Source: Pelodictyon luteolum DSM 273 (GTDB lineage Bacteria; Bacteroidota; Chlorobiia; Chlorobiales; Chlorobiaceae). Taken from it: DNA of 64,000 nt. Shown here piece by piece: positions 13,046-33,801 of this stretch. The notes below the pieces were generated by a model. That model was not told where the DNA came from. It saw nothing but the letters and a program-made list of their open reading frames with translations, and did not search any database. Within the stretch, counting starts at the first letter, position 1. Every line of letters begins with the position of its first letter. The stretch spans positions 1,821,501-1,885,500 of the forward strand of contig NC_007512.1 in NCBI RefSeq assembly GCF_000012485.1, written 5' to 3'. The translations under genes were made by a program, and so were the position numbers.

Positions 13046-13077
13046 AGCAGTGCAGAAACCCTGCACTGCTTTTTTTA
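13046..13077 (+). terminator. Rho-independent terminator of pnp
   Basis: A 10-bp perfect stem (agcagtgcag at 13046-13055, complement 13061-13070) with loop aaacc is followed directly by a run of T to 13077, about 20 bases after the pnp stop. Confidence 0.93.
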
Positions 13078-13079
13078 TT

Positions 13080-13117
13080 CCCGTTATTCCCGTTATTACT
13101 CCTTATTACCCGTTATT
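13080..13117 (+). repeat. Short tandem cccgttatt repeats upstream of leuS
   Basis: Three exact copies of the 9-mer cccgttatt start at 13080, 13089 and 13109, with a degenerate copy (ctccttatt) at 13099. They fill the space between the pnp terminator and leuS, 50 bases before its ATG. This may be a leader element or a small replication-slippage repeat. Confidence 0.75.
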
Positions 13118-13167
13118 CCCGAAACCCGATACTACCCCGCAACCAGACCGAACCCGACAGCCCCACG

Positions 13168-31541: not shown

Positions 31542-33020
<1,479 letters not shown>

Positions 33021-33154
33021 TGGTATCAGGGGTTAGGATCTTCGAAAGCTTCAATGGTCGGTAATGTACTAAATTTCCCTCACTCCTCCACGAAGGCAAC
33101 ACACTTCAGCGCCGCCTCCAGTCTACCCCGCCTACTCATAGGGCGCCCGCTGTT

Positions 33155-33310
33155 AATTCGTTCACCAGACTCCGGCTGTTCACCCATTCACCGGACTCCG
33201 GCTGCTCATCCATTCATCAGACCCAGGCTGCTCATCCTTTCACCGGACTCCAGCTGTTCACCCATTCACCGGACCCCGGCTGCTCATCCATTCACCGGAC
33301 CCCGGCTGCT
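33155..33310. repeat. 26-bp minisatellite, about six tandem copies
   Basis: Units of exactly 26 bp begin at 33155 (degenerate), 33181, 33207, 33233, 33259 and 33285, and the array ends at 33310. The core is ttcaccggactccggctg with a few substitutions between copies; unit 2 contains a dyad ccgga-c-tccgg. The units abut with no unique spacers, so this is not CRISPR. The array fills the 297-base gap between the JAMM gene stop and the carB GTG, on the likely carB leader. The remaining bases, 33021-33154, show no gene. Confidence 0.92.
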
Positions 33311-33317
33311 CTACCAA

Positions 33318-33749
33318 TCATTCCACAACGCGGATCTGCTCCTGATGGAAACCGCCGGACTCGCGGCGGAGCCATGCGGTGACCTCTTTCGGACGACCTT
33401 CCGAGAAAGAGATGATGAGCATGGTGTGACCGGGCTTTGCGAAATCGACATCGTGCAGCGAAGGTACTGCGGGAGAGTTGATGTGGGAGTGATAGGAACC
33501 TACGATGGAGAATCCGAGACCTTTAGCCTCCCGCTCCACGTCGGAGTATTCCTGATGGGAGATCTCGAAGCCGTTCTCACGGCCATGGTAGAGGCAGTTG
33601 CGACAGGGTGCCACCTCATGGATGATGTTCTCGACATTGCCACGATGATCGACGTTTTTTATTCCGGCAAACAGCCCGCAGCACTCCTGAGGAAGTTCAC
33701 GGAACGCCTGTTCCTGGATGATTTCAAAAGCTCGGCGGGGTATTTTCAT
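33318..33749 (-). CDS. JAMM/MPN+ (M67 family) metallopeptidase
   Basis: The 143-residue protein has an intact JAMM zinc site: Glu22 (ELPQECCG), His87 and His89 (SYHSHINSPAVPS), Ser97 and Asp100. Bacterial homologues cleave ubiquitin-like sulfur-carrier proteins or release sulfur groups in cysteine and cofactor synthesis; no such carrier gene is adjacent, so the substrate is unknown. I used ATG 33749; the open frame extends about 120 codons upstream but reads into purD in a different frame. It lies 52 bases after purD on the same strand. Confidence 0.88.
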   Translation of the reverse strand: MKIPRRAFEIIQEQAFRELPQECCGLFAGIKNVDHRGNVENIIHEVAPCRNCLYHGRENGFEISHQEYSDVEREAKGLGFSIVGSYHSHINSPAVPSLHDVDFAKPGHTMLIISFSEGRPKEVTAWLRRESGGFHQEQIRVVE

Positions 33750-33801
33750 ACGGCGACAGCAGCAGCGGCGGTTGAATTGGTATGGTGAATGGCTACGATG
33801 G

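Follow-up and report, generated by a model that had tools for sequence, protein, structure and literature searches.

A 26-bp minisatellite upstream of carB in Pelodictyon luteolum DSM 273 is probably one locus of a lineage-restricted hairpin repeat family

We considered the array of 26-bp units between the JAMM gene and carB of P. luteolum DSM 273 as, most probably (probability of roughly 0.7), one site of a hairpin repeat family that is confined to a single lineage and in which the 5′ arm seeds minisatellites, and as a passenger at carB. The array reads as spreading, self-multiplying DNA and not as a carB switch, because the same family is also found at gene junctions, near toxin-antitoxin-like genes and inside proteins. 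Its effect on carB is expected to be little or none.

The array in the JAMM-carB spacer

Coordinates given as such or as window positions refer to the window, which is the whole stretch of 64,000 nt that was analysed. The features of the spacer are listed below.

33156..33311, minus strand: six abutting 26-bp units, consensus GAGCAGCCGGGGTCCGGTGAATGGAT (minus-strand sense), obtained by TRF, hand cutting and self-match
about 33130..33155, minus strand: probable decayed seventh unit, TAACAGCGGGCGCCCTATGAG..., with 12-14 of 21 compared bases matching other units
33182..33207, minus strand: the single unit with an exact CCGGAGTCCGG dyad
33318..33749, minus strand: JAMM/Prok-JAB gene of 143 aa, directly upstream of the array (PF14464, E 1.5e-16)
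31542..33020, minus strand: N-terminal half of carB (carbamoyl-phosphate synthase large chain), with a GTG start and the domains CPSase_L_D1, D2 and D3
33021..33079, minus strand: carB-proximal block GGGAAATTTAGTACATTAC ... GATACCA, a candidate promoter or leader, from an alignment of six genomes

The minisatellite of about six abutting 26-bp units that an earlier, sequence-only reading of this DNA had described was confirmed by TRF (33161-33311, period 26, 5.8 copies, 84% matches, score 211), by units cut by hand and by a shuffle control, in which the self-match of the spacer at lag 26 was 0.84 and that of 500 dinucleotide-shuffled versions reached at most 0.49. The array made up the three best self-match tiles of the whole window (lags 10-60). 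The six units, cut by hand, matched each other in 19-25 of 26 positions. TRF also reported a 78-bp row over the array, in which units 1-3 resemble units 4-6, and a duplication of a three-unit (78-bp) block is therefore suggested. The units are head-to-tail and within the length of about 10-100 bp that defines minisatellites (VNTRs), and they abut, with none of the unique spacers of a CRISPR between them.

The array had been said to fill the whole carB leader; in fact, it starts 6 nt past the JAMM stop and stops 135 nt before the carB GTG. The CCGGA-n-TCCGG dyad assigned to unit 2 (33182..33207) is exact, and CCGG on both sides, ascribed to the later units in general, is present in two of these four units and absent from the remaining two. 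The Rfam search of the region returned three matches, every one far below the gathering score, and neither a sigma-70 nor a terminator consensus was seen in the JAMM-carB region. The conserved block before carB (window 33021-33079, GTACATTA ... GATACCAGTG) may serve as a promoter or leader and has no match to the sigma-70 consensus.

Two other features of the window were observed. An open frame of 244 aa on the plus strand (33054-33788) runs antisense to the JAMM gene and passes through the array; it is probably spurious. At 13075-13121 a unit of 9 bp (TTATTCCCG) is repeated in tandem about 5 times; it does not have the family core described below.

The carB locus in related genomes

The JAMM gene was matched in 64 of the 65 genus genomes searched, and 30 JAMM loci were fetched for the comparison of the spacers. 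Counting over all 30, we found the strict core at the carB locus in two, namely in this genome and in a P. luteolum metagenome-assembled genome (MAG). The array was absent from 25 of the 27 readable spacers (L143, L144 and L148 were left out); the genomes beyond these loci were covered by the pattern searches described below. Chlorobium sp. N1, the next closest by the JAMM gene (90% identity), has no array in this spacer. As the sequence-only reading had anticipated, the array is not the same in related genomes: this genome has six or seven units of 26 bp, and the MAG has five units, mostly of 27 bp and mostly reading CCGAAGTCCG. The same reading had taken a period that is not a multiple of three to mean that the array is unlikely to be coding. 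This holds for the 26 bp of the present genome, but the period alone is no argument against coding, because the carB spacer of the nearest relative has mostly 27-bp units.

The exact dyad of the carB unit is not kept in the MAG units. The block next to carB, from GGAAATTT-nGTACATTA to GATACCAGTG, is conserved in the six aligned genomes, whether or not they carry the array. Neither the alignment with empty carB sites nor the comparison of the Nudix loci described below showed a recognisable target-site duplication. The JAMM-carB spacer takes insertions in another lineage too, since the 339-bp spacer of L155 (genome G041) holds a different one (...GAAATACACGAAAAGGCACG...).

A core shared by seven array loci

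Searching the genome (one contig of 2,364,842 bp) with the carB array, we obtained a second array, in a Nudix gene, at E 2.3e-27, plus further short matches. Presence of the unit elsewhere in the genome was a check that the sequence-only reading had itself named as counting against it. Pattern searches and TRF gave seven array loci, a modest dispersal, with periods of 15, 16, 17, 24, 26 and 27. Common to all of them is the core AACAGCCG-RR-GTCC, in which G replaces A in some units and which has one extra base in the Nudix units. The loci are the following.

carB spacer: 26 bp
5′ end of the Nudix gene that follows a gene for an OppC-type permease: 6.8 copies of 27 bp
boundary between a methyltransferase-like gene and a glycosyltransferase gene: 6.6 copies of 24 bp
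spacer that separates a UDP-glucose/GDP-mannose dehydrogenase gene from the phosphomethylpyrimidine kinase gene convergent with it: 3.5 copies of 17 bp
three loci at 2.015, 2.018 and 2.082 Mb: 2.5 to 7.1 copies of 15-16 bp

A strict two-core pattern had 14 matches in this genome versus 0 for the reversed control, and 31 matches in 5 genomes versus 3 control matches when run over 86 genomes of the taxonomic family. With a looser pattern there were 46 matches in 10 genomes versus 19 in the control; 40 of these 46 were in this genome and in four relatives that carry the core, where the control gave 0. The relatives are Pelodictyon luteolum MAG CIII (G025, the MAG of the present text), Chlorobium phaeovibrioides BrKhr17 (G028), Chlorobium sp. 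N1 (G029) and Chlorobium sp. bin.97 (G038); the remaining 81 genomes had stray matches only. By eye, we judged as unrelated one of the two looser matches of G029 (one of the 40), the strict match of G007 and six looser matches of G007, G002, G009, G016 and G042. Single cores with at most one mismatch were about twofold more numerous in this genome than in the reversed control (48 versus 21), with the excess largely in arrays. Exact single-core matches were 19, only three of which lay outside arrays and elements, in what appeared by eye to be ordinary coding sequence.

A wider scan of genome contigs with the strict two-core pattern returned 32 stretches, and the eight of Chlorobium/Pelodictyon were counted as members of the repeat family. 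The 24 others (16 actinobacterial by title) and six viral contigs with two-core matches were rejected, their sequence context being judged unrelated. Among plasmid and phage records no relative of the hairpin element was found, and the carB spacer gave four plasmid records, with a sole match of 25 bp within the JAMM gene (E 0.03). We dropped the openness of the core in all six frames as a special property, because 36% of random 17-mers have it.

Arrays inside genes

In this genome about seven copies of NSRKSDECL follow the fourth codon of the Nudix protein; the MAG has two copies, and the six other readable loci have none (30 Nudix loci found, 12 fetched, eight readable). For the methyltransferase-like protein 56 loci were found and 20 fetched. 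It ends with YEL and 2-11 further residues in 17 of these; in the three of this genome, the MAG and N1 its C-terminus is extended by TAEV or AAEV repeats. In this genome and in the MAG the array spans the TGATG stop/start and its reading in the other frame gives the QQPxS repeats that head the glycosyltransferase. Hence this array (GTGTGATGG; L120:2398-2590 and L122:5093-5284) encodes a methyltransferase-like C-terminus and a glycosyltransferase N-terminus in two frames. A reading of the 24-bp array as the glycosyltransferase N-terminus was rejected: most of the array encodes the end of the methyltransferase upstream, and it then runs into the glycosyltransferase.

A POR-domain oxidoreductase gene of the MAG contains an in-frame 18-bp array of 2.6 copies with the family core (L238:1749-1795), and its protein has STAEVQSTAEVQSTA in place of the shorter linker of relatives with 58% identity (comparison of six of 12 loci). 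In proteins, three or more reading frames of the core are in use, giving TAEV, QQPxS and NSRKS. The TRF periods are 18, 24 and 27 in genes and 15, 16, 17, 26 and 27 in non-coding places. That the periods in genes are divisible by three, at three independent gene loci, is suggestive of a selection on frame but does not prove it. Arrays are at a stop/start junction in the permease-Nudix pair (ATGA) and in the methyltransferase-glycosyltransferase pair (TGATG), and not at the carB, 17-bp or POR sites. The Nudix locus of N1, which has no array, already shows a 4-nt stop/start overlap (GTGA).

The hairpin element

The core forms the 5′ arm of an inverted repeat at the three sites at 2.0-2.1 Mb and also at sites of the four relatives. 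The element is about 65-80 nt long, with approximately the structure 5′ TTACGTAAG-GAACAGCCG-RR-GTCCGGTGRA ... GGACCCCGGCTGTTC-TATACGTAAG 3′, and often occurs in tandem pairs. The inverted repeat is sometimes doubled and often flanked by TTACGTAAG-like sequence; CCGCTAA stands ahead of many copies, some copies are partial, and the copy of N1 is weak (E 2.7e-4). The folds of four native copies were more stable than those of their shuffles on average (z -3.7, -2.6, -4.2 and -2.3), and a composite hairpin, typed by hand and not native, had z -8.7. As in MITEs, there are terminal inverted repeats and no coding capacity, the latter read from the short length. In its array form the element is represented by the 5′ arm in tandem, that is, the core AACAGCCGRRGTCC plus a locus-specific tail. 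The carB unit also carries GTCCGGTGAA, corresponding to element bases beyond the core (21 nt, 95%, E 0.009, a weak match alone).

Among the neighbours of the element are toxin-antitoxin-like genes, encoding DarT, macro-domain, HipA-like, Xre/MbcA/ParS-type and PIN-domain proteins and AbiEii/AbiEi. One PIN-domain/AbiE stretch adjoins the element in three genomes (L119:11851-15969, L123:6264-10382 and L124:825-3666), and the genes beyond it differ from one to the next, as if it had moved as a cassette.

The copy number differs between related genomes at the carB, Nudix and L118/L264 sites. The last is an orthologous site of this genome (L118) and the MAG (L264), with 98% identity over 600 nt upstream, and has three copies of the 5′ arm here and one in the MAG; another site has seven copies. 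We considered three copies versus one as the most direct evidence that arrays may grow from the arm. At three loci the units were more similar within genomes than between this genome and the MAG (0.84/0.88 versus 0.76, 0.96/0.89 versus 0.79 and 1.00/0.91 versus 0.87), as expected of repeated local homogenisation.

Proposed origin of the arrays

The sequence-only reading gave the cause of the expansion as unknown; a candidate is now available, in which one arm of a dispersed hairpin is amplified. According to this proposal, the hairpin element or just its arm would reach a new site as a copy, the arm would multiply through slipped-strand replication or unequal recombination, and units would then be homogenised separately within each genome. 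Arrays would last where they are nearly harmless. Such places would be spacers and stop/start junctions, as well as protein tails or linkers when the period is a multiple of three. In the JAMM-carB spacer the array would have arisen in the lineage shared by this genome and the P. luteolum MAG, ahead of the conserved carB leader. The array, the core common to the loci, the hairpin, the empty loci of relatives and the changing copy number and period are observed; we infer the direction from arm to array, the slippage or unequal recombination and the neutrality at carB; the opposite order, with arrays first and the hairpin arm later, could also apply.

A bolder version is that a selfish repeat spreads as the tandem array itself, with a hairpin arm of 15 bases from which minisatellites start at new sites. 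Its period would be any that the site allows, a multiple of three within genes and any length outside them, and one array could cross a stop/start to encode two protein ends in different frames. We regard this version as rather doubtful.

Comparison with known repeat systems

MIRUs are repeats that undergo tandem amplification. They insert at start codons (PMC12548453), and the present family resembles them as dispersed, tandemly amplified repeats at stop/start junctions, with insertions at such junctions in the Nudix and the methyltransferase/glycosyltransferase pairs. It differs in its shorter core and in its hairpin form, and the Nudix locus of G029 has a stop/start overlap (GTGA) even without an array.

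BrickBuilt of Porphyromonas gingivalis is described as a minisatellite within a MITE, with a 23-nt tandem unit without spacers, and as dispersed, species-specific and present at several loci with small inverted-repeat ends (PMC4596501). The likeness is in the short tandem unit within a dispersed element with inverted repeats, at several loci. By its description (PMC4596501), on which the comparison is based, BrickBuilt is always intergenic and has a leader and a tail around the array, whereas here the array is a hairpin arm, the period depends on the locus, several arrays are without the rest of the element and some are coding.

Rickettsia palindromic elements are reported in frame within proteins, with a length of about 150 bp and a conserved peptide each (PMC10969869, PMC3733652). 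Palindromic dispersed DNA in frame in unrelated proteins is found here too, in the Nudix, methyltransferase and POR-domain proteins; however, it is the arm only, in tandem units of 18-27 bp at protein ends or in a linker, and not a palindrome of about 150 bp. PARCELs, palindromic coding tandem repeats with a 25-residue motif and a link to mobile DNA (PMC2996958), are similar in being tandem coding repeats with dyad symmetry tied to mobile DNA, but the present core is read in three or more frames and most of its loci are non-coding.

Like the GTAG/CGTC REPs, of which the CGTC type is listed in Chlorobi (PMC3733652), the elements are small dispersed hairpins, often in pairs. Arms and loop are longer here than in that description, and a GTAG or CGTC tag was not seen by eye. 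REPs also go with RAYT enzymes: RAYT-type enzymes (PF01797) were matched in one of the five genomes searched and not in this genome, and no core was found in the 2.6 and 3.3 kb around the matches at two RAYT loci. The word Chlorobium is absent from the main text of a survey of stem-loop families (PMC2267715). Judging by titles and the start of abstracts, no description of this repeat family was found in the part of the open-licence literature on Chlorobium/Chlorobi repeats that was covered. The family combines traits of known systems, and it does not have every defining feature of any dispersed-repeat family tested.

Alternative explanations

The sequence-only reading had suggested that the array could affect carB expression or act in protein binding. 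In a regulatory array of this kind, the units would serve as repeated protein-binding sites or as structured RNA, with the copy number as a dial of carB expression. The position of the array between two co-directional genes and its retention in both luteolum-type genomes are consistent with this, and the main point left for it is the RNA fold, which is more stable than that of 199 of 200 shuffles (z -2.8; 1/200 equally stable). On the other hand, the core is at only 2 of the 30 fetched JAMM loci, the dyad is lost in the MAG, the carB-proximal block is conserved regardless of the units, and the core is dispersed in unrelated contexts, including the inside of proteins. A regulatory role of the array is therefore not supported, and we hold it unlikely. 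Slippage is a common origin of bacterial minisatellites, and the unit lengths vary from locus to locus here, so that an unrelated spacer sequence might have expanded in a purely local way, with coincidence or convergence accounting for the likeness to other arrays. This is contradicted by the sharing of one core among the arrays, with seven loci, the E-value to the Nudix array, the 14 two-core matches versus 0 given above and the presence of the family in five of 86 genomes, and it seems to us scarcely credible.

The hairpin elements might instead be the attC sites of an integron, with the toxin-antitoxin genes as cassettes and the arrays derived from the sites. Elements do lie near toxin-antitoxin-like genes, one cassette recurs in other contexts, and the CCGCTAA ahead of many copies would fit. 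However, neither the paired outer core sites of attC nor an integrase of the same genome was found: a crude pattern for CTAAC...GTTAG pairs at 40-140 nt gave 0 in 13 sources, and the best TIGR02249 match of this genome is below the cut-off (80.7 of 265 bits), with matches below the cut-off in 14 of 14 control genomes too. An IntI-type integrase above the cut-off occurs in one of the five genomes, Chlorobium sp. N1 (L260:9938-10552; TIGR02249, 293 bits; Phage_integrase in Pfam). It is probably truncated, because only model positions 107-313 of 315 are covered, and the 19.5-kb stretch around it has no core. We consider an integron very unlikely. A core recognised in natural transformation or repair, accumulating by bias as a DNA-uptake or recombination signal, would explain a short clade-restricted sequence in several contexts, but loci are few and clustered in arrays, with 3 of 19 exact single cores outside arrays and elements, which makes such a signal highly improbable.

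Conclusions

Bacterial minisatellites tend to be regarded as local accidents that have nothing to do with each other. In the family with a hairpin arm as the probable source of its arrays, a single core is common to arrays at unrelated loci, and these can be tied to a dispersed hairpin. The empty loci, the intermediate copy numbers and the genome-specific homogenisation in five related genomes are a natural series for the birth and spread of minisatellites, which also bears on the origin of new protein tails from repeats. As regards carB, a likely false lead is removed.
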